Shown here: one piece after another, positions 7,213-59,425 of the stretch
How the letters are laid out: the number at the start of each line of letters is the position of its first letter
How positions within the stretch are numbered: position 1 is the first letter of the stretch
Assembly: GCF_001632775.1 (NCBI RefSeq)
Contig: NZ_CP015249.1
Location: 1,282,686 to 1,346,685 of the forward strand
Source of the DNA: Dokdonella koreensis DS-123
Lineage (GTDB): Bacteria > Pseudomonadota > Gammaproteobacteria > Xanthomonadales > Rhodanobacteraceae
Direction of reading: 5' to 3'
Length of the DNA stretch: 64,000 bases
Program-made: the position numbers and the translations under genes
Notes under the pieces: generated by a model
The model's input: only the letters and a program-made list of their open reading frames with translations
Database searches by the model: none
Told to the model about the DNA's origin: nothing

Positions 7213-9180
7213 CTAAAGCGGCTCGAAATCGTTCGTCGCGATGCGCTCGGTCACGACCGGCGAACGCACGCGCACGCCACCGGTGGTGTTGCTGCTCAGC
7301 ACGACATGGCTGAGTCCGCCGACGCAGCTGGTCACGATCGCGGTGGCGCCCTGGACCGTCGTGTCGAGGGTTTCGGCCGTCCAGGTCAGGCCGCGATCGT
7401 GGGAGCGGTGGAACGTGGCGCTGGTGAACGCGTAGACGGTCCGGTCGTCGCAGGCGTCGAAGGCCAGCAACGGAGCCGGCCAGCCCGGCAAGTTGCCGCG
7501 TGTGTGCCAGCTGTCGCCGCCGTCCATGGACCAGTAAACCGGCACCATGCCGCTGCCTCCGGCGGTCGCCAGCAGCACATGAGGTGCGCTCGGATGAACG
7601 GCTAGTGCCCCGAACGCCGGCGCGGTGACGACCGGCGTCATCGCCTCTCCGGAGCGGTCCGCACGTAGCAGGGTATATGCCAGGTCCGATCCGGCCAAGC
7701 CGTAGAGACGACTGCTGTAGCCGGCCGTGGCAGCGCGCAGGCTCCGCACGCCGGCCTGGACCTGCTGCCAGTGCAGGCCGCCGTCTTGCGACCAGAACAA
7801 CTGGCCGCTGGTGCTCGTAGCGGAAACGCGAGCTGGATCGACCCGGTCGTAGACGATGCTCAAGAACGATGCGTTGAACAGACCTGAATCGGAAGGCAGC
7901 GGTTGCCAGTTGAGACCGCCGTCGGTCGTCCGATAAACCTTCGGTCCTGCCGTTGTACGCGTGACGCTGGCCAGGGCGATCGCCGGATCGCGCGGATGAC
8001 GATCCACGCTCGAGGATATGTGGGTCGTTTCGGCGATGCCGGCACCCGCCTCCCAGGTCAGGCCTCGATCGAGGCTGACCCAGGGCCCGGCCTTGCCGAC
8101 GGCGATCAACGAGCCGTTCGAGCGATGACCGGCCAGGGCATTGATCTGAGCCAGCGGAATGCCGCGCGTACGCACGCTCCAGTGGCGGCCGGCATCGGTC
8201 GAGACCAGCGGGCCCGCCAGCGAAGAGCCGATCATCGTGCCGTCGGCCAGGACTGCCTGCAGACGTGCGTTGCGATCGCTCGGCACGAGCGTCCAGGTCA
8301 CACCGAAATCCAGGCTTTCGCCGAGCTGCTCCTCGTTCACATCGATGACGGTGGCCGCCGACCAAATCCGTCCGCTCTGCAGCGGGTCCGCGAACAAGCC
8401 GAGAATATCCCCCGAGGCGCCCCACACATGGTCGATGTCCTCGTTGTCGTAACGCAGCAGATTGGACACCCAGCCGCCGTCCGACGACCACAGCAGCGCG
8501 AGTACACCTGGCACGACCAGCACTTGCGAGGGCAACGGCATTTGCGGGCTCGGATTGCGCAGCAGGACGTCCCAGTTGGCGCCGCGGTCTCTCGAGAACA
8601 TCACGCGGCTGTCGCGCAGGACTGCGAAATAGCTGCCGTCTCTCGGATCGACCGCCATGCCGAGTGGCTGGAACGTGGCATCGGCGGTCAGCGACTGCCA
8701 GCTCAGACCGCCGTCGACCGACCGCATCGGCCGCGGCGATTGCCACCACAGGTACTCAGCGGAGGCGATCGCCAGCAGTTCAGTCCCGTGCGCCGGGATC
8801 GGATTGAACTGCAGTGCGTTCAATCGCGTACCGACGGCGATGGCGTCCCAGGTCGTGCCGCCGTCGGTGCTGCGCCAAAGCGAGGTGCCCGATGCGGCCA
8901 CGACGAGGTTCGGATCGTGCGGACTGGCCGTTATCGATTGGGCATAGCCGATCGCCGGGACACGCTGCCAGTTCGCCGCCTGATCGGTCGACCGGTACAG
9001 GCCTCCGTACGTGTTGGCGAGCATGACGCTACTCGATGCGACAACCTCCGAGGCGAAGCCGCCCTCCGGCCCGGTCAGCTGCCAGGTGGGCTGCTGCGCG
9101 AAGGCTGGCGTCGCTGCGGCCAGCGACAACGCCAGGCCCGCGACCTTCGTCGTGGTCGTGCTCATCCCGATCGAACGCAT
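7213..9180 (-). CDS. Secreted Asp-box (BNR) repeat beta-propeller protein
   Basis: 655 residues. The ATG at 9180 has a strong GGGAGGGGA ribosome site. A Sec signal peptide ends near AATPAFAQ (about residue 29). The body is about nine sialidase/sortilin-type Asp boxes of the form S-x-D-x-G-x-x-W, for example STDGGTTW, SVDGGLSW, SRDRGANW, SLDRGLTW, TTDGGLNW, SMDGGDSW and SHDRGLTW, spaced as in a multi-bladed propeller. No sialidase catalytic Arg-triad/Tyr arrangement was evident, so a binding role is more likely than hydrolysis. The C-terminus ERIATNDFEPL is a variant of the tail seen on four other secreted proteins here. The reading frame stays open far upstream, but that part is antisense of the M28 gene. 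Confidence 0.85.
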   Translation of the reverse strand: MRSIGMSTTTTKVAGLALSLAAATPAFAQQPTWQLTGPEGGFASEVVASSSVMLANTYGGLYRSTDQAANWQRVPAIGYAQSITASPHDPNLVVAASGTSLWRSTDGGTTWDAIAVGTRLNALQFNPIPAHGTELLAIASAEYLWWQSPRPMRSVDGGLSWQSLTADATFQPLGMAVDPRDGSYFAVLRDSRVMFSRDRGANWDVLLRNPSPQMPLPSQVLVVPGVLALLWSSDGGWVSNLLRYDNEDIDHVWGASGDILGLFADPLQSGRIWSAATVIDVNEEQLGESLDFGVTWTLVPSDRNARLQAVLADGTMIGSSLAGPLVSTDAGRHWSVRTRGIPLAQINALAGHRSNGSLIAVGKAGPWVSLDRGLTWEAGAGIAETTHISSSVDRHPRDPAIALASVTRTTAGPKVYRTTDGGLNWQPLPSDSGLFNASFLSIVYDRVDPARVSATSTSGQLFWSQDGGLHWQQVQAGVRSLRAATAGYSSRLYGLAGSDLAYTLLRADRSGEAMTPVVTAPAFGALAVHPSAPHVLLATAGGSGMVPVYWSMDGGDSWHTRGNLPGWPAPLLAFDACDDRTVYAFTSATFHRSHDRGLTWTAETLDTTVQGATAIVTSCVGGLSHVVLSSNTTGGVRVRSPVVTERIATNDFEPL

Positions 9181-9251
9181 CGCCGTCCCCTCCCGAAGCG
9201 AATGACATTCCGCGCCGGCCCCGACAGCGCCGGCTCCCGAGCCGAACCGTA

Positions 9252-10877: not shown

Positions 10878-13721
10878 ATGCGCATCGTACGAGTGCTCGG
10901 CCTGGGCCTCGGCCTCGCCGCCCTGCCGCTGGCGGCGGCACCGGGCAGCTGGACCGGCAGCGGGCCGTTCGGCGGCCAGGTCCATGCCGTGGCTGCCGAT
11001 CCGGCACTGCCGGATCGTCTCTACGCCGCCACCCGCAACGGCTTCTTCCGCAGCCTCGACGCGGGCACGAGCTGGCAGGCGGCGGAGACCGGCCTGCCGG
11101 TGCCGCGGCCGTGGAACGGTGTGTTCGCGACGGACCCGGACACCGGTGGCCTGCTCTGGCTGGTCGACGCGCAGGGGCGCCTGCACCGCAGCACGGACGG
11201 TGCGTCGAGCTGGACCGAGACCGGCTATCGCAACGCCTTCTTCCCGTATGCCGGCCGCGCGCGCCTGGCCGCCGCCCGGGCCGGCAGCGCACGCGTGCTG
11301 TGGCTGGCCACGCGCGGCGGCGGGCTCTCGCGCAGCGACGACGACGGCGCCACGTTCGCGCCGGTCGCTGCGCTCGCCGGGGTCGAGGCCGAGTACGTCT
11401 GGGCCGCACCGGCGCCATCCGCGCTGCTGCTGGCCGGCACGCCCGAAACCGACTGCGCCGGCGGCATCACCCGTCCGCTGCGCCGCAGCGTGGACGGCGG
11501 CGCGACCTGGACCGCCGTAACCGTCGCCGATGCCTGCCAGCAGAGCCTGCTCGCGGCAGCGCGCTCGGCCGCCGACCCGAACCGGCTCTATGCGCTGATC
11601 GGCGCGTACTACCAGCGCGTGGGGCGGTTGCACGTCAGCACCGACGGCGGCGCCACCTGGGCGGCGACCGCGTATCAGGGCGCCGCGCTGGCGGTGCCGC
11701 GGCCCGGCGGCGCCGAACGGCTCTGGCTCGACGCGCAGCTCTCGACCGACGGTGGCGCGACGTTCGCCGCGCGTGCGGCCGGTGTCACGACCAATGGCGA
11801 ACACGTGCCGCTGCCGGTCGACCTGGTCGTGCATCCGGCCTATCCGGCCGTGCCGACGCTGTGGCTGGCCACCGAGTCGGCCGGTCTGTATGCCAGCGGC
11901 AACGACGGCCTGAGCTGGGCACCGTCGAACACCGGCCTGGCGGCGACCAACATCCGCGCGCTGGCCGTGCATCCGCTGGACGGTACGCGCGTCTATGCCG
12001 GCTACGGCGATGCGGCGACCTCACCGTCGCCGGCGCTGTACCGGCGCCTCGGCAGCGGCTGGGCGGCGGCCAACATCGGCCTGGACGCCTACCAGGTGCG
12101 CGGCATCACGCTCGATCCGACCACCGCGGCCGCGCCGTCGCCGATGCTGTACGCGGTCGGCAGCGGCGCGGACCCGGCGACCGGCCTGCGCGACGGTGGC
12201 CTCTACAAGAGCCTGGACGGGGGGGCCACCTGGGCGACGATCGATGCCGGCGTGCCGAGCAACGCGTTCGGGCGCGCGATCGGCATCGTGCGCAACCTAG
12301 TGCCCGATCCGCGCTCGTGCGTCGCGCCGCCGGCGAGTGGTCCGTGTATCAGCGGGCCGCTGCGCACGCTGTACGCGACGGCCACCGGCACGCGCGGCGC
12401 CGGCGGCGTGCGCGCCTGGCGCGTGCTCAAGAGCACCGACGCCGGTGCGAGCTGGGCCAGCAGCGACACCGGCCTGCCGCACGACGTGTCCGCCCCCGAC
12501 GGCAGCTACAGCACGATCAGCGGCGCAGTGCCGCTGGTGATGGATCCCGCCGTGCCCTCGACGCTGTACGTCGGCACGTTTGCGCAGAACACGCGCTACG
12601 ACCCGGTCACCGCCACCTACGACGCGCCGCAGATCGCCAGCGGCGTATTCAGGAGTACCGACGGCGGCGCCACCTGGACACATCGCAGCAACGGCCTGCC
12701 GCGCTTCCCGGGCTCGGCCGATGCGGCGCTGGACGTGCTGGCGCTGGCGATCGATCCGGCGCACCCGCAGACGCTGTGGGCCAGCACGATCGACACCAAC
12801 AACTGGACCGGTCCGGGCAGCCTCTACAAGACCACCGACGGCGGCGCCAACTGGGTGCTGGCCAACGCCGGCATCACCGCTCCGGACACGCGTGCGCTGC
12901 TGGTCGATCCGGCCACGCCGGGCACGCTCTACGCGGCCAGCGGCGGTCTCGATGCGGCCAACCCCGGTGGCGTGTTCAAGAGCGTCGACGGCGGTGCCAC
13001 CTGGCGCTCGATCAGCCTCGGTCTGCCGGCTTCTTCGGCGACTGCGCTGGCGCTCGATCCGGCCGATCCGGCGATCCTGCACGCCGGCTCCGGGGGTGGC
13101 GTGTTCACGCTGGAGCAGCTGCCCGACGCCGACGGCGACGGCATTCCCGACACCGTCGAAGCGGCCGGGCCCAACGGCGGCGACAGCGATGGCGACGGCG
13201 TTCCCGATGCGCAGCAGGCCACGGTCGGCGTGACCGCGCCGGGCGCCGGCACGGCGGCCTGGCGTCCGGGTGACACCGGGACGGCGGCGGCTGCACCGCT
13301 CGGCGCCGACGCGGCCTGGTTCACGGTCAAGCTGGTCGCCGGCAGCTGCCCGCAACTGGTCGACGTGGCGGCCGTCGATGTGGCCGGTTTGCCGGCGGAC
13401 CCGGGTTACGGCTATCCGCGCGGCCTGCTGCGCTTCGAGGCGCCGCAGTGCCCCGGCGCGACGGTCGACGTGACCTTCCACGGCACTGATTTCGGTAGCG
13501 GGTGGCGCTGGCGGCTGTACGGTCCGTCGACCCCGGGTGACGCGGCGACGATCGGCTGGCACGACGCCGGACCGGTCGTCGTCGGCCGGCAGGGAAACAC
13601 CTGGCGCCTGAGCTTCGCCGCCGGCGATTTCGGCAGCTATCGCCCGGCCAGCACCGGCTCGATCCTGTTCGTCGGGGGACCGGCGCGCGAGGAGACGATC
13701 TTCGCCGCCGGCTTCGAGTAG
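10878..13721 (+). CDS. Secreted Asp-box repeat protein with calcium-type repeats, choice-of-anchor U domain and FxxGFE tail
   Basis: 947 residues. The signal peptide is short (LAALPLAAA). At least ten S-x-D-x-G-x-x-W/F boxes run from about residue 50 to 740 (SLDAGTSW, SVDGGATW, STDGGATW, STDAGASW, TTDGGANW). Then come thrombospondin-type-3-like acidic repeats (DADGDGIPD and DSDGDGVPD, about 753-775), which bind calcium in other proteins. A C-terminal beta domain of about 150 residues matches my memory of the choice-of-anchor U domain. It finishes EETIFAAGFE. ATG 10878 is preceded by CGGAG. The long in-frame upstream extension has no signal peptide and is not used. It likely binds glycans or proteins at the surface. 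A strong terminator follows. Confidence 0.87.
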   Translation: MRIVRVLGLGLGLAALPLAAAPGSWTGSGPFGGQVHAVAADPALPDRLYAATRNGFFRSLDAGTSWQAAETGLPVPRPWNGVFATDPDTGGLLWLVDAQGRLHRSTDGASSWTETGYRNAFFPYAGRARLAAARAGSARVLWLATRGGGLSRSDDDGATFAPVAALAGVEAEYVWAAPAPSALLLAGTPETDCAGGITRPLRRSVDGGATWTAVTVADACQQSLLAAARSAADPNRLYALIGAYYQRVGRLHVSTDGGATWAATAYQGAALAVPRPGGAERLWLDAQLSTDGGATFAARAAGVTTNGEHVPLPVDLVVHPAYPAVPTLWLATESAGLYASGNDGLSWAPSNTGLAATNIRALAVHPLDGTRVYAGYGDAATSPSPALYRRLGSGWAAANIGLDAYQVRGITLDPTTAAAPSPMLYAVGSGADPATGLRDGGLYKSLDGGATWATIDAGVPSNAFGRAIGIVRNLVPDPRSCVAPPASGPCISGPLRTLYATATGTRGAGGVRAWRVLKSTDAGASWASSDTGLPHDVSAPDGSYSTISGAVPLVMDPAVPSTLYVGTFAQNTRYDPVTATYDAPQIASGVFRSTDGGATWTHRSNGLPRFPGSADAALDVLALAIDPAHPQTLWASTIDTNNWTGPGSLYKTTDGGANWVLANAGITAPDTRALLVDPATPGTLYAASGGLDAANPGGVFKSVDGGATWRSISLGLPASSATALALDPADPAILHAGSGGGVFTLEQLPDADGDGIPDTVEAAGPNGGDSDGDGVPDAQQATVGVTAPGAGTAAWRPGDTGTAAAAPLGADAAWFTVKLVAGSCPQLVDVAAVDVAGLPADPGYGYPRGLLRFEAPQCPGATVDVTFHGTDFGSGWRWRLYGPSTPGDAATIGWHDAGPVVVGRQGNTWRLSFAAGDFGSYRPASTGSILFVGGPAREETIFAAGFE

Positions 13722-13753
13722 CCGGCAGCTACCGCACCGTTTGGGAGGAGGGA

Positions 13754-15051: not shown

Positions 15052-19324
<4,273 letters not shown>

Positions 19325-24835: not shown

Positions 24836-26494
24836 ATGACCCGCGCAACCTTGTCCCGCCTCGCAGTCGCCTGCGCGCTGGCCTTCAGTTCCCTGGCGGC
24901 GACGGCCGCGCCCGACTGGCGCGTGGTGGTCGCCGACAGCGACTCGGGCTTGGTCCTGCCGTCGCTGCTGCCCTCGGCGACCGCATTCGACCTGGAGTGG
25001 GTCTCGCTGGCCAACGCCGGCAACGGTGCCCTCGGCTTCGCGCGCGATGCCGGCAGCAGCAATCCGTACGCGCTGTGGGCCGAGCGCAGCGGCGTGCTGA
25101 TGCCGTTCGCCGAGAACATGGCCACCGGTGCCCTCGGCCCCGGCCGCGCCGGCGCCGAGGCCGGCCACGTGTTCCGCGTGCTGTACCAGAAGCAGGACGC
25201 CAGCGGCCAGGCGCACCGCGTGTTCGGCGCCCGCGCCGGCGAGCCGACCCAGCCCACCGATGCGGCGACCTACGGCGTCTGGCTCTGGAACGGCGCGAGC
25301 AATACCGAGATCGCGCGGCTGAACACGGAAGGCACGCTCGGCCCGGGCTTCGGTCCCGGCGTCGCGTTCACCTACCTGGGACCCACCACCACCACCGCGT
25401 TCCCGCGCGCACGCGCGCTGCCGGGCCAGCGCGTGCTGTTCGACGCGACCGTGACCGGCTCGCTTCGGGCGGTGATCATGCATGAGGCAGGGGTGGGCAA
25501 TCGCGGGTGCTTGCTGGAGGATTCGACCGATCCGGCCTACTCGCCCGGCTTCGGTTCGGCGGTGTTCTACGACAACGGCGGCAGCTATCTGATCGGCGCG
25601 CCGGTGGTCGGTGCCCGCGGCGAAGTCTATGTCGTGTCCGGTGTGCGGGAAAACGGAACGAACGGGCGCGGGATTTTCGCCCTCTGTCGCGGCGCTCCGC
25701 AAGTATTCGCGCGCACAGCGGTGACGGGCAGCCTCGGGCCGGGGATGAGCGACACTTCGTTCATGTTCAGCGAATTCGCCGCGGTCCGGCCCGCGCACGC
25801 GGGCGCGTTCTACTTCTGGGGCGCGGTGACCTCGCCGGCGGGGTCGACCAGCGGCGGTTTCCTGCACGCCGACGGCCACAACACGCCGGTGTACCTCATC
25901 AATACCGAGGGTGCCTACGGGCCGGGCTACACCGGCTACGTGTTCAATTCCACCAGTGCTCCCGCCGAGCTTGCCGCGGCCGGCCGTTACGGCCTGCTGC
26001 GCACCACGATCAAGCCGCTGGCCGGCACGACCTCGATCACCGGCCTGTGGCGGCTGGCGCCGGGCGCCTCGCCCGAGCCGCTCGCGATCATCGGCGATAC
26101 CGGCGCCTATGCGGCGGCGCCGGGCCGGCCGTGGCGGACGTTCCATCGCACGGCGATCCTCGACAGTGGCGAGGTGCTGCTGCTGGCCGAGGTCGGCAAC
26201 CCCACCGAGCGCGGCGTCTGGCGCCTGCGTTCCGGTGCGGCGCCCGTGCGCGAGCTCGGTGTCGGCGACCTGGTCAAGGTGCCCACGAGCGCCGGCCTGG
26301 TCGAGCGCGCGGTGACCGGGATTTCGGAGTTCGACCTGACCAGTCCGGAGAACCTCGGCGAGGACGGCTGGGCCAGCGGCAACGGTACGGTGGTGGTCCG
26401 CGTGTTCGTCACGGGCGTTCCCACGAGCGCCCAGGCCTACGTCCGCGGCTTTGCCGGGCGCGCCGAGTCGCTCCTGGCCGAAGGCTTCGACTGA
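24836..26494 (+). CDS. Secreted protein with ~70-residue GPG repeats and EGFD tail
   Basis: 552 residues. ATG 24836 has GGAG 8 nt upstream. A signal peptide ends near SLAATAA. The mature part repeats a unit marked by G-x-L/Y-G-P-G followed by 4-6 residues and a Phe. Copies are at about residues 95 (TGALGPG), 165 (TEGTLGPGFGPG), 238 (YSPGFGSAVF), 297 (TGSLGPGMSD) and 356 (TEGAYGPGYTG), thus every 60-73 residues. Each seems to carry a short beta sheet with calls such as LWNGASN or LWRLAPGA. I do not recognise a catalytic motif. The C-terminus AESLLAEGFD is a member of the shared tail. It is divergent from the winged-helix kinase. Confidence 0.8.
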   Translation: MTRATLSRLAVACALAFSSLAATAAPDWRVVVADSDSGLVLPSLLPSATAFDLEWVSLANAGNGALGFARDAGSSNPYALWAERSGVLMPFAENMATGALGPGRAGAEAGHVFRVLYQKQDASGQAHRVFGARAGEPTQPTDAATYGVWLWNGASNTEIARLNTEGTLGPGFGPGVAFTYLGPTTTTAFPRARALPGQRVLFDATVTGSLRAVIMHEAGVGNRGCLLEDSTDPAYSPGFGSAVFYDNGGSYLIGAPVVGARGEVYVVSGVRENGTNGRGIFALCRGAPQVFARTAVTGSLGPGMSDTSFMFSEFAAVRPAHAGAFYFWGAVTSPAGSTSGGFLHADGHNTPVYLINTEGAYGPGYTGYVFNSTSAPAELAAAGRYGLLRTTIKPLAGTTSITGLWRLAPGASPEPLAIIGDTGAYAAAPGRPWRTFHRTAILDSGEVLLLAEVGNPTERGVWRLRSGAAPVRELGVGDLVKVPTSAGLVERAVTGISEFDLTSPENLGEDGWASGNGTVVVRVFVTGVPTSAQAYVRGFAGRAESLLAEGFD

Positions 26495-49161: not shown

Positions 49162-50169
49162 ATGCGCATCCTCGTCACCGGCGCGGCCGGCTTCATCGGA
49201 TCGGCGCTCAGCCATCGCCTGCTGGCACGCGGCGACGAAGTGCTCGGCTACGACAACCTCAACGACTACTACGACCCCACCCTCAAGGAAGCGCGACTGG
49301 CGCGGCTGACGCCGCAGCCGCGCTTCGGCTTCGTCAAGGCCTCGCTGGAGGACCGGCCGGCGCTGGAGGCGGCGTTCGCCGACTTCCGGCCGCAGCGCGT
49401 GGTCAACCTGGCCGCGCAGGCAGGCGTGCGCTATTCGCTGACCAATCCGTACGCGTACGTGGAGTCGAACCTGATCGGCTTCATCAACGTACTGGAGGCC
49501 TGCCGGCACGGCGGCGTGGAGCACCTGGTCTACGCCTCGTCCAGCTCGGTCTACGGGGCCAACCGCAAGCTGCCGTTCTCGGTGCGCGACGCAGTGGACC
49601 ATCCGGTCAGCCTGTACGCGGCGACCAAGAAGGCCAACGAGCTGATGGCGCATACCTACAGCCACCTGTACGGCCTGCCGACGACCGGATTGCGCTTCTT
49701 CACGGTCTACGGTCCGTGGGGGCGGCCGGACATGGCGCTGTTCCTGTTCACGCGCAAGATCCTGGCCGGCGAGCCGATCGAGGTGTTCAACCATGGCGCG
49801 CATACGCGCGATTTCACGTATGTGGACGATATCGTCGAAGGCGTGATCCGGACGCTGGACCGGGTGCCGGGGCCGGATGCGGGTTTCGACCCGATGGCGC
49901 CCAACCCCGGTTCGTCGGCGGCGCCGTACCGGGTCTACAACATCGGCAACCACCGGCCGGTGCAGCTGGGCGAGTACATCGCGGTGATCGAGCGCTGCCT
50001 GGGGCGCACGGCGGAGAAGATCCTGCTGCCGCTGCAGCCGGGCGACGTGCCCGATACCCATGCGGACGTGGCGGAGCTGATGAGCGACACCGGCTACTCG
50101 CCGCAGACGCCGGTGGAGGAGGGCGTGGCGCGTTTCGTGACGTGGTACCGGGACTTCTATCACGTTTAG
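49162..50169 (+). CDS. NAD-dependent UDP-uronate 4-epimerase (SDR family)
   Basis: 335 residues of an extended [18 protein letters not shown] is the NAD loop, [17 protein letters not shown] is the hallmark of UDP-glucuronate epimerases, and SSSSVYG plus YAATKKANE gives the Ser-Tyr-Lys triad. RPDMALFLF and [15 protein letters not shown] are the substrate and C-terminal signatures. It interconverts UDP-GlcA and UDP-GalA or the HexNAcA equivalents made by the preceding dehydrogenase. It is the second gene of a two-gene unit before the export operon. Confidence 0.92.
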
Positions 50170-50260
50170 ACGGCACCGGGCCGGGCACAGTCGATCGCGC
50201 TCGAGCCCTGGCGAGCGTGGGGATGGGCAGGGCGGTACGGTTCCGGTTCAGCTTAGAAAA

Positions 50261-50276
50261 TGTGAACTGGTTCACA
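50261..50276. promoter_or_regulatory. CRP/Clp-type operator (TGTGA-N6-TCACA)
   Basis: TGTGAACTGGTTCACA has both consensus half-sites perfect at the right spacing, with arms TGTGAAC/GTTCACA. It ends 48 nt before the export-gene ATG. A TACTCT at 50294-50299 could be the -10 box, which would put the operator centre near -38 to -41, as for class II activation. In Xanthomonadales the homologue Clp controls exopolysaccharide genes. Confidence 0.75.
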
Positions 50277-50324
50277 CAATGATGTGGCTGGGGTACTCTT
50301 CTGACTCGCGAGAGGGGATTTTCG

Positions 50325-50939
50325 ATGAAAGCGTTCATCTGTCGGCTCGGATTGGCCGTCATGCTCGTGGTAGCGGCGCCGGTCCTGGCGCAGGAGCAAC
50401 TGGCCGAGGTAGCGGTGATACCACCGGCGGTGGAGACCTACCGCATCGGTGTGGACGACGTGGTGCAGGTATCGGTGTGGCGTAATCCCGACCTCAGCGT
50501 CTCGGTGCCGGTGCGCCCGGACGGCAAGATCTCGGTACCGCTGATCGGCGATGTCGATGCCGGCGGACGCAAGCCGCAGGACGTGGCCGAGGACATCAAG
50601 GGCAAGCTGTCCACCTTCGTGCGCGACCCGCAGGTCGCGGTGATCCTGACCGAACTGCGCAGCCACGAGTACCTGGCGCGCGTGCGCGTGACCGGGGCGG
50701 TACGCCAGCCGGTGTCGATTCCCTACCGCCAGGGCATGAGCGTGCTCGATGCGGTGCTCGCCGCCGGCGGCACCAACGAGTTCGCCTCGGCCGACAACAC
50801 GCGCCTGTACCGCAAGGAGGGCGACAGCGTGAAGACCTTCCCGGTGAAGCTGGACCGCATCCTCAAGAAGGGCGACTTGTCGACCAACCTGCCGGTGCAG
50901 GCGGGCGACGTCGTCACCGTGCCGGAACGCGCGTTCTGA
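50325..50939 (+). CDS. Polysaccharide export protein (Wza/OPX family, small)
   Basis: 204 residues with a signal peptide ending at APVLAQ. No lipobox Cys is seen, so it is probably soluble periplasmic or outer-membrane-associated. The Poly_export domain starts YRIGVDDVVQVSVWRNPDLSVSV-like and carries VRPDGKISVPLIGDVDAGG. A SLBB segment (VRVTGAVRQPVSIPYRQGMSVLDAVLAAGG) follows. The short form without the Wza C-terminal helix is usual in XrtA-type EPS loci. It begins the export operon behind the CRP/Clp-type box and is followed by the chain-length gene after 14 nt. Confidence 0.93.
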   Translation: MKAFICRLGLAVMLVVAAPVLAQEQLAEVAVIPPAVETYRIGVDDVVQVSVWRNPDLSVSVPVRPDGKISVPLIGDVDAGGRKPQDVAEDIKGKLSTFVRDPQVAVILTELRSHEYLARVRVTGAVRQPVSIPYRQGMSVLDAVLAAGGTNEFASADNTRLYRKEGDSVKTFPVKLDRILKKGDLSTNLPVQAGDVVTVPERAF

Positions 50940-50953
50940 ACGGCGCGCCTGCG

Positions 50954-52507
50954 ATGAACGATCAACTCCCGACCCTCGCCTCGCTGCTCCCGATCATGTC
51001 GCGGGAGGCGTGGCGCCGCCGCGTGGTCCTCGCCATCACCTTCGCCGTGATCGCGCTGGCCGCGCTCGTGCTCGGCGTCATCTGGAAGAAGAAGTACGAG
51101 TCCGCCACGACGATCCTGGTCCAGGAAACCAACATCATCCAGCCGCTGATGGAAGGCCGCGCGGTGCCGACCGGCGTCGGCGACCGTGCCGCGATCGCGC
51201 GCGAGGTGGTGTTCGGCCGCAAGGTGATGACCGAGGTCCTGACGCTCGGCGGCTGGCTCTCCGACAGCCCCGGCCCGATCGAACAGGAACGCCGGATCGA
51301 GGACATCAAGAACGCCACGCGCATCGCCAGCCCGCGCGAGAACCTGATCCGGATCAGCTACACCGACTCGGACCCCGAGCGCGCGTTCAAGGTGGCCGGC
51401 AGCATGGCCGACCTCTTCATCAAGGAGAGCCTGGAGGCGAAGGAGCGCGAGAGCCGCGAGGCCTACAAGTTCGTCGACAGCCAGGTGCAGGAGTACCACG
51501 CCAAGCTGACCGATGCGGAGTCCAAGCTGATGGACTACCGCAACAAGAACCCCGATGCGCGTCCCGGCACCGAGACCGACGTCAACGCGCGCATCAGCGA
51601 GCTGCGCCGCCAGACCGACACGGCACAGATGGAGATCATGGAGCTGCGTTCGCGCGAGGCGGCCCTGGTCTCGCAGCTGTCGGGCGAGTCGGACGTCAGC
51701 GCGGTGCAGACGCGCGAATCGCAGTACCGCCTGCAGCTGGTGGAGCTGCAGGCCAACCTCGACCGGCTGCTGCTCAGCTACACCGACCAGCATCCGGACG
51801 TGATACGCGTGCGGCACCAGATGGCCGACCTGCAGGAAGGCATCCGCCAGGAGCAGGCCGCGGCCGAGCGCCGCCGCGCGCTCGGTGGCGCGGTGGCGGC
51901 CACCGACGAGAACGCGCAGTTCAACCCGCTCTACCAGGAGCTCAAGAGCCGGCTGGCCGAGACGCGCCGCAACATCGCCGCGATCGACTCGCGCCACAAC
52001 GCCAGCAGCACGATGCTGACCGCCGAGCTCGACCGCAGCCGCCGCATCGCCAATTCGGAGAACGTCCTGGCCGAGCTGACGCGCGACTACGAGGTCAACC
52101 GCGACATCTACCAGGACCTGCTGCGGCGGCGCGAGAACGCACGCGTGTCGATGAACCTGGACGCCGAGCGGCGCGGCCTGTCGTTCCGGATCCAGGAGCC
52201 GGCGCTGCTGCCGGTGCAGCCGATCGGCCTGCGCTTCGCGCACTTCGGTGCCGCCGGCATCGGCCTGGGATTGCTGCTGCCGCTGGGCCTGCTGTTCCTG
52301 CTGGCGCAGTTCGACCCGCGCATCCGCTCGGCCGAACGCCTCGAGCAGATCGCCGGCGTGCCGGTACTGGCCAGCGTGCCGGCCTACACCACGTCCCGCG
52401 ACCGCCTGCGCGACCGTTTCCGCACGACCCTGATGGTCCTGATCGTGCTCGGCGTGGCGGCGGCCTATGCGCTGCTGTTCTGGCTGCGGATGGCAAAGAC
52501 GCTATGA
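50954..52507 (+). CDS. Wzz-type polysaccharide chain-length determinant (XrtA-system-like)
   Basis: 517 residues. The first TM (VVLAITFAVIALAALVLGVIW, about 24-45) leads to the Wzz domain (YESATTILVQETN). A long coiled-coil periplasmic arm spans roughly 150-390 (KERESREAYKFVDSQVQEYHAKL, SRLAETRRNIAAID). A GNVR-like part with DYEVNRDIYQDLLRRRENARVSMNLD precedes the second TM (about 420-440). A third hydrophobic helix ends the protein. It has no fused kinase domain. Its ATGA overlap with the next gene suggests a separate ATPase partner, as in BY-kinase/Wzz pairs. Confidence 0.93.
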   Translation: MNDQLPTLASLLPIMSREAWRRRVVLAITFAVIALAALVLGVIWKKKYESATTILVQETNIIQPLMEGRAVPTGVGDRAAIAREVVFGRKVMTEVLTLGGWLSDSPGPIEQERRIEDIKNATRIASPRENLIRISYTDSDPERAFKVAGSMADLFIKESLEAKERESREAYKFVDSQVQEYHAKLTDAESKLMDYRNKNPDARPGTETDVNARISELRRQTDTAQMEIMELRSREAALVSQLSGESDVSAVQTRESQYRLQLVELQANLDRLLLSYTDQHPDVIRVRHQMADLQEGIRQEQAAAERRRALGGAVAATDENAQFNPLYQELKSRLAETRRNIAAIDSRHNASSTMLTAELDRSRRIANSENVLAELTRDYEVNRDIYQDLLRRRENARVSMNLDAERRGLSFRIQEPALLPVQPIGLRFAHFGAAGIGLGLLLPLGLLFLLAQFDPRIRSAERLEQIAGVPVLASVPAYTTSRDRLRDRFRTTLMVLIVLGVAAAYALLFWLRMAKTL

Positions 52508-53286
52508 CCCAAAACGACATCGACAAGCCCGTCCCCGCCCCCGACCGCGTCGGCGACGCGCTGCAGGCCAGCGCCGGCGGCCTCGCGCAGCGCGCGTCGG
52601 CCAGCCGTTCGATCGCCCGCATGGGCGACGGCGCGATGCTGGCGCCGCGCCAGCTGGAGGAGCGCCGGCTGATCCACCGCGAGGGCGCGCGCCAGCAGGC
52701 CGACGCGTTCCGCGAGATCCGCACCAAGCTGCTCGCGCTCGGCGGCGACCAGAACTTCGTGACGATGGTGGCGCCGATCGGCCCGGGCTCCGGCGGCAGC
52801 TTCGTCGCCCGCAACCTGGCGGCGGCGTTCGCGTTCGACGAGGCCAAGACCGCGCTGCTGATCGACTGCAACCTGCGCCATCCCAGCCAGCACCGCACGC
52901 TCGGCATCGATCCGAAGGAAGGCGGGCTGATCGACTACCTCGAGCATCCCTCGCAGGGCATCGAGAAGGCGTTCTACCCGACCGGCGTGCCACGGCTGCG
53001 GCTGATCCCGACCGGCAAGTCGCGCGAGATGGGCGCGGAGTACTTCTCCTCGTTCCGCATGCGCGCGCTGATCGATTCGCTGCGCAGCCGCTATCCGGAC
53101 CGTTACCTGTTCCTGGACGGGCCGGCGGTCAAGGGCTCGCCGGACGCGCGCATCCTGGCCGACCTGGCCGATTTCGTGGTGCTGGTGGTCGGCTACGGCC
53201 GCGAGACGCCCAAGGCGATCGCGCAGGCGGTGGCGGGCTTCGATCCGAACAAGCTGGCCGGCATCGTCTTCAATCATCCGCCGTGA
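52504..53286 (+). CDS. BY-kinase-like ATPase with degenerate Walker A
   Basis: 260 residues of the CpsD/CapB (tyrosine autokinase) fold. QADAFREIRTKLLALGG is the usual lead-in, and ARNLAAAFAFDEAKTALLID the helix and A-prime strand. LFLDGPAVKGSPDARILADLADFVVLVV holds the Walker B Asp. The P-loop reads GPGSGGSF at residues 93-100, so the conserved Lys of GKS is Gly 98. The A-prime motif is IDCNLRHPS instead of IDADLRRPS, so a second Asp is Asn. No Tyr-rich C-terminal tail is present (it ends in FNHPP). It probably binds nucleotide poorly and acts as a structural partner of the Wzz protein it overlaps. Confidence 0.85.
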   Translation: MTQNDIDKPVPAPDRVGDALQASAGGLAQRASASRSIARMGDGAMLAPRQLEERRLIHREGARQQADAFREIRTKLLALGGDQNFVTMVAPIGPGSGGSFVARNLAAAFAFDEAKTALLIDCNLRHPSQHRTLGIDPKEGGLIDYLEHPSQGIEKAFYPTGVPRLRLIPTGKSREMGAEYFSSFRMRALIDSLRSRYPDRYLFLDGPAVKGSPDARILADLADFVVLVVGYGRETPKAIAQAVAGFDPNKLAGIVFNHPP

Positions 53287-53378
53287 CCCGGCGGCACGGG
53301 CTGCAAGGGCGCGCCGGCGCATCGGCGCGGATCGGGCGGGGCGCAGAAGGATTCCGCCACGACGGCGGGAGGGGAGCG

Positions 53379-54668
53379 ATGAACACACCTCTGAAGCGGT
53401 TGGCAGCCTCGGTGCTGGCCGTGCTGGCGGCGCCGGCCGGTGCCGTGCAACTGGACTACACGCTCGAACTGGGCCTGCTGCACAGCGACAACATCAACCT
53501 GAGCGAGGACGACCCGGTCAGCCAGAACGTGGCGATCCCGGCGATCAACTTCAGCCTGCGCCAGGAAGGCGCCACCGTACAGGCGCTGGTGCGCGGCGTG
53601 GCCGAGTACCGCAACTACCTCGGCAACGCGTTCGACGACGAGCTGCGCGGCCAGCTCGACGGCATCGTCAACTGGACGCTGCTGCCCGAGCGCCTGAGCT
53701 GGACGTTCCAGGATGCGCTGGGCCTGCAGCCGATCAACGTGCTGCAGGCCGACACGCCGACCAACCTGCAGCAGACCAACGTCTTCGCGACCGGGCCGAC
53801 GCTGCGCTTCCGGATCAACCCGGTGCTGCGCGGCCAGGCGGAACTGCGCTACGTGGACAGCTACGCGGAGGAGACCGAGGAGTTCAATTCGCGGCGCTGG
53901 ATCGGCGCGCTGCGCGTGTTCCACGACCTCAGCGCCACGGCCGAGGTCTCCGGCAACCTGCAGACCGAGCGCGTCGACTTCGACCAGGACGGCCTGGAGA
54001 ACTACACGCGCTACGACCTGTTCGCCCGCTACACCAGCCACCTGTCGCAGTTCGACCTGGACGCCGCGCTCGGCTACTCGCGCTTCAACTACCGTCACCG
54101 CGACAACCGCTCGGGCGTGCTGGCGCGCGCGATGCTCGGCTGGCGGCCGAGCGCGCGCAGCGGATTCACCCTCTCGGCCGCGCGCCAGTATTCGGACGCC
54201 GCCACCGACATGATGGCCGACCCGGGAACGATCGGCAGCGGTTCCACCGGCATCATCATCGGCGACACGTCGATCGACGCCGGCGTCTACCTGGAAGAAC
54301 GCCTGGAGCTGGCCTACGCCTACACGGCCGAGCGGCTCGGCCTGCGCGTGGCACCGTTCTGGCGCAAGCTCGACTACGGCCAGGACACGCGCGGCGTCGA
54401 CCAGCGCGGCGGCGGCTTCAACGGCGAGCTGAGCTACCGGCTGCGCCCGCAGCTGCGCGGCGGCATCGTGGCGAGCGCCGAGCGGCGCAACTTCGCCGGC
54501 CTGGACCGGCGCGACGACGACACGCGCTACGGCGTGTTCCTGACCCAGCAGTGGACGCGCCACTGGGCCTGGCGGCTCGACCTGCTGCGCGGCGAACGCG
54601 ACAGCACCGGCGACGGCGTGAATTTCGACGACAATCAGGTCTACCTGCGCGTGTCCTATACGCGGTGA
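53379..54668 (+). CDS. Outer-membrane beta-barrel of the EPS system (TIGR03016-like)
   Basis: 429 residues with a signal peptide ending at APAGA. The mature protein is made of alternating beta strands, for example LDYTLELGLLHSDNINLS, LSWTFQDALGLQPINVLQ, LRGQAELRYVDSYAEE and AWRLDLLRGERDS. It ends in the aromatic outer-membrane signature VYLRVSYTR. The opening with DNINLSEDDP is typical of the PEP-CTERM-system-associated outer-membrane proteins found with XrtA-type EPS genes. It may be the channel for the polymer. A GGGAGGGGA-like site precedes ATG 53379. Confidence 0.85.
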   Translation: MNTPLKRLAASVLAVLAAPAGAVQLDYTLELGLLHSDNINLSEDDPVSQNVAIPAINFSLRQEGATVQALVRGVAEYRNYLGNAFDDELRGQLDGIVNWTLLPERLSWTFQDALGLQPINVLQADTPTNLQQTNVFATGPTLRFRINPVLRGQAELRYVDSYAEETEEFNSRRWIGALRVFHDLSATAEVSGNLQTERVDFDQDGLENYTRYDLFARYTSHLSQFDLDAALGYSRFNYRHRDNRSGVLARAMLGWRPSARSGFTLSAARQYSDAATDMMADPGTIGSGSTGIIIGDTSIDAGVYLEERLELAYAYTAERLGLRVAPFWRKLDYGQDTRGVDQRGGGFNGELSYRLRPQLRGGIVASAERRNFAGLDRRDDDTRYGVFLTQQWTRHWAWRLDLLRGERDSTGDGVNFDDNQVYLRVSYTR

Positions 54669-54777
54669 CCGATCGCCGGCCGCGCGCTACGGCGCCGCGG
54701 CGCGGCCTGCGTCGCTGCGGCGCCGTCGTCCGTCCTGACGCGTCGGCACCACGCGCCGCACCATCAGAGGAGATTCC

Positions 54778-55758
54778 ATGAGCGCTATCCTGGTCACCGG
54801 CGGCGCCGGCTACATCGGCAGCCACGTCGTCCTGCAGCTGCTGGCGCGCGGCGAGCGGGTGGTCGTGCTCGACAACCTCGCCAGCGGCTTTCGCGAGGCT
54901 GTGCTCGGCGGCCATTTCGTGCAGGGTGACGTCGGCGATCGCGCCCTGGTCGCTGCGCTGCTGGCCGAGCACGCGATCGACACGGTCATGCATTTCGCGG
55001 CGCACACCGTCGTGCCGGAGTCGGTCGCCGACCCGCTCAAGTACTACGGCAACAACACCTGCGCCACGCGCAACCTGCTGGCGTGCTGCACGGAGGCCGG
55101 CGTGCGCCACATCGTGTTTTCCTCGACCGCCGCGGTCTACGGCATGCCGGCTTCGGGTGTGGCCGACGAGGACACGGCGACCGTGCCGATCAATCCGTAC
55201 GGCAGTTCCAAGCTGATGAGCGAGATCATGCTGCGCGACGTGAGCGCGGCGACGCCGCTGCGCCACGTGATCCTGCGCTACTTCAACGTCGCCGGCTGCG
55301 ACCCGGAAGGCCGCATCGGCCAGTCCACGCCGAAGGCGACGCTGCTGGTCAAGGTGGCCTGCGAGCAGGCCGTCGGCAAGCGCCCGCAGCTGTCGGTGTT
55401 CGGCACCGACTACGCGACCCCGGACGGGACCTGCATTCGCGACTACATCCACGTCGCCGACCTGGCCGATGCGCACCTCAAGGCGCTGGACCACCTGCGC
55501 GCGGGCGGCGACTCGACCACGCTCAACTGCGGCTACGGCCACGGCTACAGCGTGCGCGAGGTGATCGACGCGGTCGAGCGTGTCGCCGGCCACCGGCTGA
55601 CCGTGGTCGACCAGCCGCGCCGCGCCGGCGATCCGCCGGCGCTGATCGCGCGCAGCGACCGGCTCAAGGCGCTGCTCGGCTGGCAGCCGCGCCACGACGA
55701 CATCGATTTCATCGTCGGCAGCGCGCTGGCCTGGGAGCGGAACGGCCGCTATGGCTGA
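54778..55758 (+). CDS. galE: UDP-glucose 4-epimerase
   Basis: 326 residues. ILVTGGAGYIGSHVVLQLL is the NAD site, VVVLDNLASGFREAV the adenosine strand, and FSSTAAVYG and NPYGSSKLMSE give Ser and the Tyr-x-x-x-Lys. RYFNVAGCDPEGRIGQ and DGTCIRDYIHVADLADAH are strong GalE marks. It interconverts UDP-glucose and UDP-galactose for the polymer. The DYIHVxDLA pattern and length make GalE safer than other epimerases. It starts 109 nt after the barrel gene and continues the EPS operon. Confidence 0.94.
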   Translation: MSAILVTGGAGYIGSHVVLQLLARGERVVVLDNLASGFREAVLGGHFVQGDVGDRALVAALLAEHAIDTVMHFAAHTVVPESVADPLKYYGNNTCATRNLLACCTEAGVRHIVFSSTAAVYGMPASGVADEDTATVPINPYGSSKLMSEIMLRDVSAATPLRHVILRYFNVAGCDPEGRIGQSTPKATLLVKVACEQAVGKRPQLSVFGTDYATPDGTCIRDYIHVADLADAHLKALDHLRAGGDSTTLNCGYGHGYSVREVIDAVERVAGHRLTVVDQPRRAGDPPALIARSDRLKALLGWQPRHDDIDFIVGSALAWERNGRYG

Positions 55759-55773
55759 GCGGATGCCACGCGC

Positions 55774-57480
55774 GTGCGGCCGGCGCACCCGCCGGTGAGC
55801 CCCCGGCTGCTGCCGGCCCTGGTCCTGGTGCCGCTGCTGCTCGCGGCAGCGCCGGCACCGGCGGCGATCGGCCTGGACCTGGCCGCGATCGATACCCGCT
55901 CCGCCGCCTATCGGCGCTACCAGGCCTGGGTCGACGCGGCGGTCGCCGGCCGGCCGGACTACGGCTTCTCGGCGAGCGATGCGGCCTACCTGTATCGCCT
56001 GAGCGAGGACGACCGGTATTGCACGCTCGCCGTGCGGCTGGTCGACGAACAGGTCACGGCCGCCGAGCAGGCGATTGCCGAAGGCCGCCGGCCGGCGGTG
56101 GCCGGCGACTCCTACCTGGAGGCCGGGCCGATGATCGGCGCGCTGGCGCTGACCTTCGACTGGTGCGCATCGGTCACCGACGAGGCGCAGCGGACGCGCT
56201 GGCGCACGTACGCCGAGCGCACGCTGACCAACATCTGGCAGCCGGCCGCCGCGCAATGGGGCGAGCGCCCGTTCGCCTGGACCGGCTGGGGCACCGACAA
56301 CCCCGGCAACAACTACTACTACAGCTTTCTCGAAGCGACGATGACCTGGGCGCTGGCCAGCGACAGCGCGCCGTGGCTCGATCGCCTGCGCACGCGCCTG
56401 CTGCCGGCACTGACCGCGTACGCCGGCGCCTTGCCCGGCGGCGGCAGCCGCGAGGGCACCGGCTACGGCACCGCGCAGATGCGGCTGTTCGCGCTGTACC
56501 GGCTCTGGCGCGATTCGACCGGCGAGGACCTGGCCGCCGCGAACACCCACCTGGCCGACACGATCCGCTTCTGGGTGCACGCCACGGTGCCGACCTGGAC
56601 GCAGTTCGCACCGCTGGGCGACCAGGCGCGCACGTCGGTGCCGGAGATCTACGACTACCACCGCCGGCTGATGCTCGAAGCGCGCGCGCTGGCCAAGGAC
56701 GACGCCTCCCGCGACCTGGCCTCCTGGTGGCTGCAGCACATCGCGGTCAAGCGCATGGCGCACGGGTTCAACTACCGCTACGACCTGCTGCGGGCCGGCA
56801 GCGGCGGCCATGCGCCGGCCGCGCTGGACTACTTCGCCGAAGGCAGTGGCCGCCTGTTCGCACGGACCGGCTGGAACCGTGATGCGGCCTGGATCGCATT
56901 CACGGCCGGTCCGTACGTCGAGAGCCACGCGCACCAGGACCAGGGCGCGTTCCTGCTGTTCCGCGATGGCTGGCTGGCGGTGACCGAGAACATCTGGACG
57001 CGCAGCGGCATCCAGCAGGGTACCGAGGTGCACAACGTGCTGCGCTTCGTGCGCAACGGCGCGACGGTCGCGCAGCGCGAGGGCACCACGTCGCGGATGA
57101 CGGTCACCCGCGACGGTGCCGGCGGCACGCTCCACGCGACCGCCGACCTGACGCCGGCCTACGGCGGCCAGGCCGCGGTGCGTTCCTGGGAGCGCCGCCT
57201 GGATTTCGCGGCGGACGGCACGGTGACGGTCGGCGACCGCTACGCGGTGGCCGACGGGACGCGCGCGATCTTCCAGGTCAACGTGCCCGAGCGTCCGGTC
57301 ATCGACGGCCGCGAGGTGCGGGCCGGTGCGCTGCGCCTGCGCGTGCTGGCGCCGGCACGCGTCTCGGTGACGGCGCACGACTGGCACGGCGTGGATGCGG
57401 ACGAGTTCCGCTCCGGCTGGCGCATCGACATCGAGGGCGAGGGCGGCGAGTACCGCGTGGAGTTGGCGACGGGCCGCTGA
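55774..57480 (+). CDS. Heparinase II/III-like polysaccharide lyase, untailed paralogue
   Basis: 568 residues from GTG 55774; GTG 55795 is an alternative closer to the signal peptide. The signal ends near APAPAA. The first ~330 residues are an alpha/alpha toroid with NPGNNYYYSFLEATM and GGGSREGTGYG. The second half is the beta sandwich typical of PL12/15/17-type lyases, holding ESHAHQDQGAFLLF with candidate catalytic His and the aromatic site. It is next to galE and 16 nt behind it. It probably trims or degrades the EPS in the periplasm. It ends GGEYRVELATGR, without the FxxGF tail of its paralogue. Confidence 0.88.
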   Translation: MRPAHPPVSPRLLPALVLVPLLLAAAPAPAAIGLDLAAIDTRSAAYRRYQAWVDAAVAGRPDYGFSASDAAYLYRLSEDDRYCTLAVRLVDEQVTAAEQAIAEGRRPAVAGDSYLEAGPMIGALALTFDWCASVTDEAQRTRWRTYAERTLTNIWQPAAAQWGERPFAWTGWGTDNPGNNYYYSFLEATMTWALASDSAPWLDRLRTRLLPALTAYAGALPGGGSREGTGYGTAQMRLFALYRLWRDSTGEDLAAANTHLADTIRFWVHATVPTWTQFAPLGDQARTSVPEIYDYHRRLMLEARALAKDDASRDLASWWLQHIAVKRMAHGFNYRYDLLRAGSGGHAPAALDYFAEGSGRLFARTGWNRDAAWIAFTAGPYVESHAHQDQGAFLLFRDGWLAVTENIWTRSGIQQGTEVHNVLRFVRNGATVAQREGTTSRMTVTRDGAGGTLHATADLTPAYGGQAAVRSWERRLDFAADGTVTVGDRYAVADGTRAIFQVNVPERPVIDGREVRAGALRLRVLAPARVSVTAHDWHGVDADEFRSGWRIDIEGEGGEYRVELATGR

Positions 57481-57493
57481 GCCTGCCGCTTCA

Positions 57494-57518
57494 GGCCGCC
57501 CGCCGGCGCGGGGCGGCC
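57494..57518. terminator. GC hairpin between convergent lyase genes
   Basis: GGCCGCCC (57494-57501) pairs with GGGCGGCC (57511-57518) around a 9-nt loop, 13 nt after the lyase stop. The remaining 57519-57712 has no gene. A bidirectional terminator is plausible; no T-run. Confidence 0.4.
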
Positions 57519-57712
57519 CGCCTCAGGCCGATGGCGGTTCGATCGGCATGGCGGACGGGATCCGGAAGCTGCCGAGGTCGCGGCTGGTCAGTGCGCGCAT
57601 GCCGGATGCCGCGGACGCGCAGCCCGCGTCCGCCCGGTGGCACCGGACCTGGGCCGACGGTATCGGGGCGGGGGAGCGGCCGGCCACCGTCCAGGCCGCC
57701 GGCCGGCGGGGC

Positions 57713-59425
57713 TCAGTCGAAGCCGTTCTTGAACAGGTCTTCGCTGGTCTTGAGCTCGACCACGTAGCTGCCGCTGCCGCCGCGCACCTCGATGCGCCAG
57801 CCGGAGCGGAAGTCGCTGCCGGCGGTGCGCCAGTCGACCGCGGTGACCGTGGCATTGGCCGGCTGCAGCACGTTGATCTTCAGGCGGCCGGCGGTGACGC
57901 TGCGGCCGGAGATCGTCGGCTGCACCGGCACGTTGACCTGGAAGATCGCCTGCGTGTCGGCGCTGACCGCATAGCTGTCCTGCACCAGCAGGCGCCGGGC
58001 ACCGAACTCGATGCTGCGCTGCCAGGACTGGATCGCGCTGTTGCCGCCATAGGCCGGGGTCAGGTTGGCGGTCGCGCTGAGCGCGCCGTTGGCGCCGGTC
58101 TGCGTGATCGTCATGTTCGAGGTGGTCGGCTCGCGCTGCGCGATCGTCGTGCCGTTGCGCACGAAGCGCAGCACGTTGTGCACGTCGGTGCCCTGCTGGA
58201 TGCCGCTGGAGGTCCAGATGTTCTCGGTGACCGCCAGCCAGCCGTTCTCGTACAGCGTGAACGCGCCCTGGTCTTGGTGCGCATGGCTCTGCACGTACGG
58301 GCCGGCGATGAACGAGAGCCACATGGCGCCGGCATCCCAGCCGCTGCGCGAGAACAGCTGGCCGACGCCGGGCGCGTGGTAGGTCAGGTTCGACGGCGTG
58401 GACGAGGTGGCGCCGGGCTGCAGCAGGTCGTGCCGGTAGTTGAAGCTGTTGGCCATCTGCTGCACGGAGATGCCGTTGAGCCACCACGAGGCGAGGTTGC
58501 GCATCTCGGCGTTGGCCGTGTTGCTGCGTGCCTCCAGCATCAGCTGGCGGTGGTAGTCGTAGAGCTCGGGCTGCGAGGTGCGCGCCTGGTCGCCGATCGG
58601 CGCATAGCGGTCGCGGGTCGGGACCGTGGCATGGGTCCAGTAGGCGACCGTGTCGGACAGGTGGCTGTTCGCGTTGGCGGCGTCGGCGCCGGTCGAGTCG
58701 CGCCAGAGCCGGTACAGCGCGAACACCGTCCGGTGCGAAAGCCCGTAGCCGGTGCCTTCCTGGCTGCCGCCGCCGGGCAGGTTGGCGAAATAGGCCTCCA
58801 GCGTCGGCAGCTTGTTGTTCTGGATCCAGGCCTTCCAGGTCGTGCTGTTGGTGGCCAGCGACCAGTACATCGTCGCCTGCAGGAAGCTGTAGAAGTAGTT
58901 GTTGGCCGGGTCGTTGGTGCCCCAGCCCGACCATGCGAACGCGCGCCCGCCCCATTGGGCCTGGCTCGGGTTCCAGATGTTCCAGATCGCCTGCTCGGCA
59001 TAGGCGCCCCACTGGGTGCGCTGCGCGTCGTTGACGTAGGCGCGGCACCAGTCCCAGGTGATCGCCAGGTCCATCAGCATGGGACCGGCCTGCAGGTAGG
59101 AATCCCCGGCGACCTCCGGCCGCTGGCCGTTGGCGATCGCCGTATTGGCGGCGTTGACCTGCGCCTGGCTCATCTGCACGGCCAGGTTGCAGTACTGCGC
59201 CTGGCCGGTCAGGCGGTGCATGTAGGCCGCGTCGGTCGCCGCGAAGCCGTAGGCCGGGTGGCCGTTGACGGCGGCGTCGACGTAGCTCTTGAAGCGGGTG
59301 TACGCCGCCGACTGCGGGTTGACGTACGAAAGGTCGATCGTGATGCCTTCGGCACCGGCAGCGACCGGACTCAGGGCTACGGCCGCTGCTGCGAGTGCGC
59401 GACTGTAACGATTCCACAGGGCCAT
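57713..59425 (-). CDS. Heparinase II/III-like polysaccharide lyase with KNGFD tail
   Basis: 570 residues. GAGGAAGG lies just upstream of ATG 59425. The signal peptide ends near PVAAGA. It is a full-length paralogue of the gene at 55774 in inverted orientation: NNYFYSFLQATMYW, GGGSQEGTGYG, FALYRLWRDSTG and QSHAHQDQGAFTLY match piece by piece. So the same toroid and beta-sandwich folds and the same candidate His are present. Past the last shared strand (GSYVVELKT) it has SEDLFKNGFD, the tail of other secreted proteins, so its final location may differ from that of the paralogue. A CRP-like box lies 191 nt upstream. Confidence 0.9.
   Translation of the reverse strand: MALWNRYSRALAAAAVALSPVAAGAEGITIDLSYVNPQSAAYTRFKSYVDAAVNGHPAYGFAATDAAYMHRLTGQAQYCNLAVQMSQAQVNAANTAIANGQRPEVAGDSYLQAGPMLMDLAITWDWCRAYVNDAQRTQWGAYAEQAIWNIWNPSQAQWGGRAFAWSGWGTNDPANNYFYSFLQATMYWSLATNSTTWKAWIQNNKLPTLEAYFANLPGGGSQEGTGYGLSHRTVFALYRLWRDSTGADAANANSHLSDTVAYWTHATVPTRDRYAPIGDQARTSQPELYDYHRQLMLEARSNTANAEMRNLASWWLNGISVQQMANSFNYRHDLLQPGATSSTPSNLTYHAPGVGQLFSRSGWDAGAMWLSFIAGPYVQSHAHQDQGAFTLYENGWLAVTENIWTSSGIQQGTDVHNVLRFVRNGTTIAQREPTTSNMTITQTGANGALSATANLTPAYGGNSAIQSWQRSIEFGARRLLVQDSYAVSADTQAIFQVNVPVQPTISGRSVTAGRLKINVLQPANATVTAVDWRTAGSDFRSGWRIEVRGGSGSYVVELKTSEDLFKNGFD

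Follow-up and report, generated by a model that had tools for sequence, protein, structure and literature searches.

Cargo of the type II secretion system (T2SS) enters the periplasm by the Sec or Tat route and folds there before export, according to the parts of PMC12369372 on which we draw, and two papers of 2025 (PMC11981180, PMC12369372) state, in the sections used, that the T2SS has no known signal that is either conserved or linear. The closest described signals, those of Dickeya/Pectobacterium (PelI, Pel3) and Vibrio (VesB), lie in a flexible, exposed part of a cargo protein folded in the periplasm and involve the PDZ domain of GspC, as far as the extracts used of PMC12369372 and PMC7949064 tell; the former describes a disordered PelI loop that binds the OutC PDZ domain in Dickeya, and an EpsC PDZ domain that is needed for one cargo in Vibrio. 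Here we describe a short C-terminal tail first noticed on five secreted proteins in a stretch of 64,000 nucleotides of Dokdonella koreensis DS-123 (the window, positions 1,282,686-1,346,685 of a genome that is one contig of 4,446,619 bases). The tail is a real feature, kept at the protein level, on exported proteins, and, judged from gene presence across genomes, it is co-inherited with one of two T2SSs, a classical system that we call T2SS-A (gspC, gspD, gspE). In our judgement it is probable, if only just, that the tail is a short linear address on the folded periplasmic cargo of T2SS-A, probably uncleaved; its reading site and its causal role are what we infer.

The five C-termini, as quoted in an earlier note on this DNA, were verified in the sequence, both in their letters and in their stops (7213 on the minus strand, 13721 and 26494 on the plus strand, 32539 and 57713 on the minus strand). 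These tails and one untailed relative lie as follows.

7213-7248, minus strand: variant tail ERIATNDFEPL and stop, an outlier with A for F, on a 650-residue BNR propeller protein (gene 7213-9165)
13689-13721, plus strand: tail EETIFAAGFE and stop, on a BNR/Sortilin-type propeller protein (gene about 10893-13721)
26462-26494, plus strand: variant tail AESLLAEGFD and stop, an outlier with L for F, on a GPG-repeat secreted protein (gene 24800 or 24839-26494)
32539-32574, minus strand: tail IDALFADGFGD and stop, on a reprolysin-type metzincin (gene 32539-34521)
57713-57745, minus strand: tail SEDLFKNGFD and stop, on a heparinase II/III-like lyase (gene 57713-59425)
55795-57480, plus strand: untailed lyase paralogue ending in YRVELATGR, a natural control for the tailed lyase

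The bodies assigned to these proteins earlier were recovered for four of them (two BNR/Asp-box proteins, the reprolysin-type metzincin and a Hepar_II_III_C lyase), while no Pfam family matches the GPG-repeat protein at E ≤ 0.01. A choice-of-anchor domain, which the earlier note had placed on one of the five, was matched in none of them at E ≤ 0.1 (NCBIfam); a tailed subtilase elsewhere in the genome does match choice_anch_J (L076:14465-19411, E 3e-15, NCBIfam). The real start of the protein ending at 13721 probably lies upstream of about 10893.

We then counted the tail in a genome sample of 60 spread 20-kb stretches plus the window (1.264 Mb, with one window-overlapping stretch omitted), in which a simple purpose-made codon model called 932 genes. 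A loose rule found the tail on 39 of them, so that it is far commoner than the five first noted, and the consensus of these 39 is [DE]x[IL]Fx[DN][GD]F[DE], followed by 0-5 residues. This consensus fits three of the five window tails (those at 13721, 57713 and, with an extra G, 32539), and the position at which those at 26494 and 7213 deviate is F in 35 of the 39 sampled tails. For strict counts, 56 genes open at a stretch edge were removed, which left 876. The strict tail was found on 29 genes, 27 of them with a signal peptide by a crude, purpose-made test that also scores membrane proteins as positive and the remaining two by eye; the same test was positive in 385 of the 847 untailed genes. 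Shuffled C-termini yielded the strict tail at a mean of 0.005 (200 shuffles). The earlier note had proposed comparing its own motif, at most three residues from the end, between signal-peptide proteins and others and with shuffled C-termini, and both comparisons favour the tail: 23 of 876 genes carry that motif, 22 of them with a signal peptide by the crude test (Fisher p 9e-7), against a shuffled mean of 0.02.

Furthermore, a DNA pattern for FxxGF[DE] and a stop, run over the complete genome, gave 19 matches, of which 18 have a true stop and one has TGG, and none for its backward control, and the same pattern without the stop gave 144 against 14. The motif occurs anywhere in the 876 genes in 37 copies, 30 of them at most six residues from the end, while shuffled proteins average 0.1. 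A compositional or repeat artefact is disfavoured by the backward-pattern controls and by the varied codons; in some genomes the same peptide is encoded by AT-rich codons. A scan of 110 tailed proteins found twin-arginine (Tat-type) signals on two; one of these was searched for domains and belongs to DUF1501.

In the window's genome, the pattern [DE]x[ILVMF]Fx[NKDE]GF[DE] has 73 matches, versus 0 to 3 in 273 further genomes drawn from the class. Among the 299 genomes of the order, it is frequent in some genera and absent from others of the same family. Carriers among the at least 80 loci collected include Dokdonella, Chiayiivirga, Tahibacter, Pseudofulvimonas, Marinicella and many metagenome-assembled genomes (MAGs) of Lysobacterales. 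The strict motif under-counts, since genus g251 seemed tail-free until its metzincin end LIFQDRFEP appeared, and a relaxed pattern was therefore adopted. In this genus the G of the motif is replaced, and one genome, G308, has R in 56 of 61 matches (DxIFxDRFE; e.g. L226, L229, L238), with nine of ten inspected motifs at most eight residues from the C-terminus. A coordinated shift from G to R in dozens of unrelated proteins is the trace expected of a reader that co-evolves with the tails, and so suggests that they share one. The genes around the tails gave no obvious candidate: among the at least 80 loci, the only families near tails in at least three loci were sigma factors of the extracytoplasmic function type, kinases and one amidohydrolase-like family, and no shared neighbour was obvious by eye in 11 stretches of two genomes chosen for low tail counts, one of which, G277, has 23 copies by a wider pattern.

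The earlier note had suggested looking for a gene whose presence follows the tail count, and such a gene set was found in a second T2SS. We searched the secretin model TIGR02517 in 43 genomes hand-picked as tail-positive or tail-negative, and typed all over-cut-off matches and two fragments (73 loci) by comparison with both copies present in the window's genome. Type B corresponds to the Xps system, whose operon in that genome has XpsM and an XpsN-like protein; type A is the classical one, with adjacent gspC, gspD and gspE genes. In the window's genome, type A scores 561 bits with TIGR02517, 688 bits with TIGR02533 and 93.8 bits with T2SSC (PF11356), all over cut-off; its GspC-A stays below the cut-offs of the NCBIfam GspC models, and the PDZ matches lie just below the Pfam cut-off. 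All 25 tail-positive genomes have GspD over cut-off, and type A is present in 25 of 25, and in two of three weakly tailed genomes (G335 and G278, with G334 as the exception); the 15 tail-negative genomes lack it, save for one distant A-like secretin in G332 (35%). Two tail-negative genomes (G012, G290) have no GspD over cut-off. A quick tree built from 71 secretins sets A and B wholly apart; the G332 copy joins the A side through a long branch, and type A broadly follows the families. A GspC-like gene accompanies the A locus in 24 genomes and no B locus; an alignment of 23 GspC-A copies, of which one is shortened, shows the HR and PDZ parts, each with a match to OutC. The type-B GspC/XpsN of the window's genome, the one tested, matched GspC in the HR part only and gave no PDZ match. 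Next to gspC-A, a secreted delta-60-repeat protein (L266:11079-12623, plus strand) ends in NDIIFRYGHE, possibly a degenerate tail.

GspD-A was searched across the 299 genomes of the order. Nineteen of the 135 matches were set aside as a distant type of family f2 (at most 376 bits), and among the 116 kept, some are partial and that of G544 is doubtful (312 bits, half length). Tail presence was defined by a cut-off of seven matches to the relaxed pattern, which was our choice, cut-offs of five and ten giving similar tables, and the tables were compiled by hand from the search outputs; counts are given as both/tail only/A only/neither. The whole set gave 99/13/17/170, the genomes at least 95% complete gave 61/2/8/154, and the genera gave 23/0/4/44. 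A pattern without the leading acid, applied to eight A-only and eight tail-free genomes, found 23 matches in G277 (control 0). After its reclassification, the 225 genomes at least 95% complete gave 62/2/7/154, i.e. 9 discordant and a concordance of 216, whereas 2000 within-family permutations of the gene reached at most 200. Fragments of a type-A GspD with 42-60% identity were found in four of the 13 tail-only genomes (G483, G438, G389, G394), in two cases where a contig begins, and eight of the nine genomes without such fragments are at most 90% complete. The weakly tailed G335 has nine motifs, and three in the control. From the typing and the secretin tree, T2SS-A reads as ancestral and as lost in a large f1 clade, most of f2 and largely in f178; the tails are missing in the same places. 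The distant A-like secretin set aside above belongs to 19 tail-free f2 genomes of genera g2, g3, g273, g276 and g299, and is perhaps the Xcs system.

The tail is an add-on at exposed protein ends. A search of 200 genomes of the order gave homologues of the window metzincin in 21, at 26 loci, all of which were inspected. The six from tail-less genomes (G338 twice, G386, G401, G406, G425) all stop within nine residues of the point where the alignment ends, close to the place at which the tail would start. Among the other 20, ten, including the query, end in the tail directly or after an extra domain; the ends of four are closely similar (IFRNGFQ, VFADGMESD, IFADSFE, IFEDTFGG...), one ends in LIFQDRFEP, one has the motif and 300 more residues, and four have C-termini beyond the fetched stretch. 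The two lyases of the window, encoded by neighbouring genes, are 59% identical over 535 aligned residues, but one ends in VELATGR and the other in VELKTSEDLFKNGFD; a Pfam search with the untailed paralogue itself (55795-57480) gave nothing at E ≤ 0.001. That paralogue closes an exopolysaccharide-like cluster (49162-57480) with epimerase-like genes, a Poly_export protein and a porin-like protein, and adjoins its tailed relative. Elsewhere in the window, a 1655-residue protein with RHS repeats (40199-45166, plus strand) is without the tail.

Copies of the motif are not confined to the extreme end. Seven of the 37 lie 13 to 212 residues from it, several of them preceding a further domain; two of 86 tailed genes (L119, L127) have two consecutive copies, and genome G369 has five match pairs spaced 27-33 bases. 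In G277, the motif stands directly after the signal peptide, at the mature N-terminus, in a PQQ-type propeller (L255:1629-3614, plus strand) and a DUF1800 protein (L257:9650-11278, plus strand). Because tandem copies exist, and others sit between domains or immediately follow a signal peptide, CTERM-like cleavage or transpeptidation is disfavoured, and a docking motif thus fits better than a cleaved terminal signal. Internal copies bearing Cys were also seen (CIFGHDFE, VFCSGFD and LFCTGFE in L027:6705-11156 on the minus strand, L055:15794-18823 and L066:13837-16980 on the plus strand), each followed by a similar-looking C-terminal stretch of about 160 residues. The idea that the tail is the detached first strand of a choice-of-anchor J domain, by donor-strand exchange, was dropped, as the sample held only one similar domain start.

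We propose that the cargo would pass the inner membrane by Sec and occasionally by Tat, a dual entry of T2SS cargo that matches the two kinds of signal peptide on tailed proteins, and would fold in the periplasm with the tag exposed. The tag would then dock in the periplasmic part of T2SS-A, most plausibly at the PDZ domain of GspC or else at the secretin N-domains; the docked cargo would be exported through GspD-A, and the tag would probably stay uncleaved. GspC-A PDZ or GspD-A is proposed as the reader on account of the PDZ part of GspC-A, its match to OutC and the PelI and EpsC cases. A bolder version, possible but somewhat doubtful to us, is that the tail is a linear T2SS signal: nine residues that could be moved from protein to protein as an address, would be read by the secretin or by the PDZ domain of GspC, and alone would decide which folded periplasmic proteins exit via the classical T2SS in Lysobacterales that also run an Xps-type T2SS. 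The earlier idea of an export or sorting tag on unrelated folds is thus strongly supported, while the machine is of a known T2SS type and not, as the note had thought possible, an undescribed system, and cleavage or transpeptidation is not favoured. The seemingly undescribed part is the short linear tag tied to this second T2SS.

Several observations weigh against this proposal. G334, with 17 motifs and 97% completeness, has no type-A GspD found, and is the clearest exception because the eight other fragment-less tail-only genomes are at most 90% complete. Conversely, G498, G526, G544, G353, G360 and G454 have type A (in G544 by a partial match only) but 0-3 motifs. When the 19 distant f2 secretins, all in tail-free genomes, are counted as A, the table becomes 62/2/26/135 with 28 discordant, and an A-like secretin alone is therefore not sufficient for tails. 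Tailed genes are not enriched beside gspCDE-A either (6 of 332, below the 4% sample average; B loci 0 of 453), and tails occur in MAGs named Alcanivoracaceae (L097, L115, L122, L123, L141), seemingly outside the order. Co-inheritance cannot separate T2SS-A from other genes lost in the same clades, and the profile covered T2SS-A only. The co-inheritance might also be a phylogenetic by-product: an ancestral lifestyle rich in surface proteins would have shed both T2SS-A and the tails, independently of each other but within the same clades, with a different gene as the reader. The genomes are indeed not independent, T2SS-A is the only gene profiled and exceptions run both ways; yet tails and T2SS-A are absent together from much of f1, from most of f2 and largely from f178, and within-family permutation never attains the observed concordance. 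We regard this account as improbable.

The main rival, which we rate as unlikely, is a surface anchor: T2SS-A, or Xps, would export the proteins regardless, and the tail would then dock to an outer-membrane or surface partner co-inherited with T2SS-A. The tailed subtilase with choice_anch_J is of a kind that bears anchoring tails elsewhere, as are some other tailed proteins; tandem and internal copies suit docking, and the lyase paralogue and the metzincins of genus g229 manage without a tail. An anchor would also fit the proteases of a Wenzhouxiangella strain, which the part used of PMC7691419 infers to be surface-held and not released, which counts against the export address. However, no partner was found, the sole co-inherited machine tested is a secretion system, and loss of T2SS-A should not by itself abolish the need for an anchor. 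A processing signal, recognised and then cleaved or modified by a sortase-like, PorU-like or C-terminal protease enzyme, would agree with the terminal place of most copies (30 of 37 at most six residues from the end), but the tail has no hydrophobic helix or basic end, only 0-5 residues follow its core, and copies with at least 160 residues downstream, directly after a signal peptide or in tandem are hard to reconcile with it; we take this to be very improbable. If the export address is correct, cargo lists would be readable from sequence, and the tag could serve as a portable export tag.

Finally, the tail can be set beside the known C-terminal tags. GlyGly-CTERM with rhombosortase and MYXO-CTERM with myxosortase, like PEP-CTERM with exosortase, place one C-terminal tag on many unrelated exported proteins and pair it with one machine. 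These CTERM systems combine a motif, a transmembrane helix and a basic end and are cleaved, whereas the tail here has neither helix nor basic end. Curated CTERM or type IX secretion system (T9SS) models of NCBIfam 20.0 gave no match at E ≤ 0.1 in eight tailed proteins and none in 16 of the 39 sampled 45-residue C-termini scanned alone, where only a HAF repeat appeared (E 0.04), and no NCBIfam 20.0 model covers the tail in either set. LPXTG/sortase features (LPXTG, helix, basic tail) are absent from the window and sampled tail sequences. The C-terminal domain of the T9SS, sorted by PorU, is likewise a C-terminal sorting element of secreted and surface proteins, but spans about 80 residues against a conserved stretch of about nine here. 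The signal for the beta-barrel assembly machinery (BAM beta-signal) is C-terminal with a terminal aromatic residue, on beta-barrel proteins; the tail shares the C-terminal aromatic but has F followed by an acid, and the Pfam-matched bodies are soluble folds. Type I secretion substrates, with their C-terminal signal, have no N-terminal signal peptide, while the tailed proteins bear one. A literature search gave no description of the motif among the matches listed, and none of six core spellings was found in the papers covered. The T2SS signals of PelI, Pel3 and VesB are composite or structural and cargo-specific, whereas the tail of the window's genome is one linear nine-residue motif on dozens of unrelated proteins. 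T2SS cargo choice is a long-standing open question, and a motif co-inherited with one T2SS makes it directly testable. T2SSs and C-terminal sorting tags are each known, and one short linear tag that many proteins share and that goes with a T2SS would, it seems, be new.

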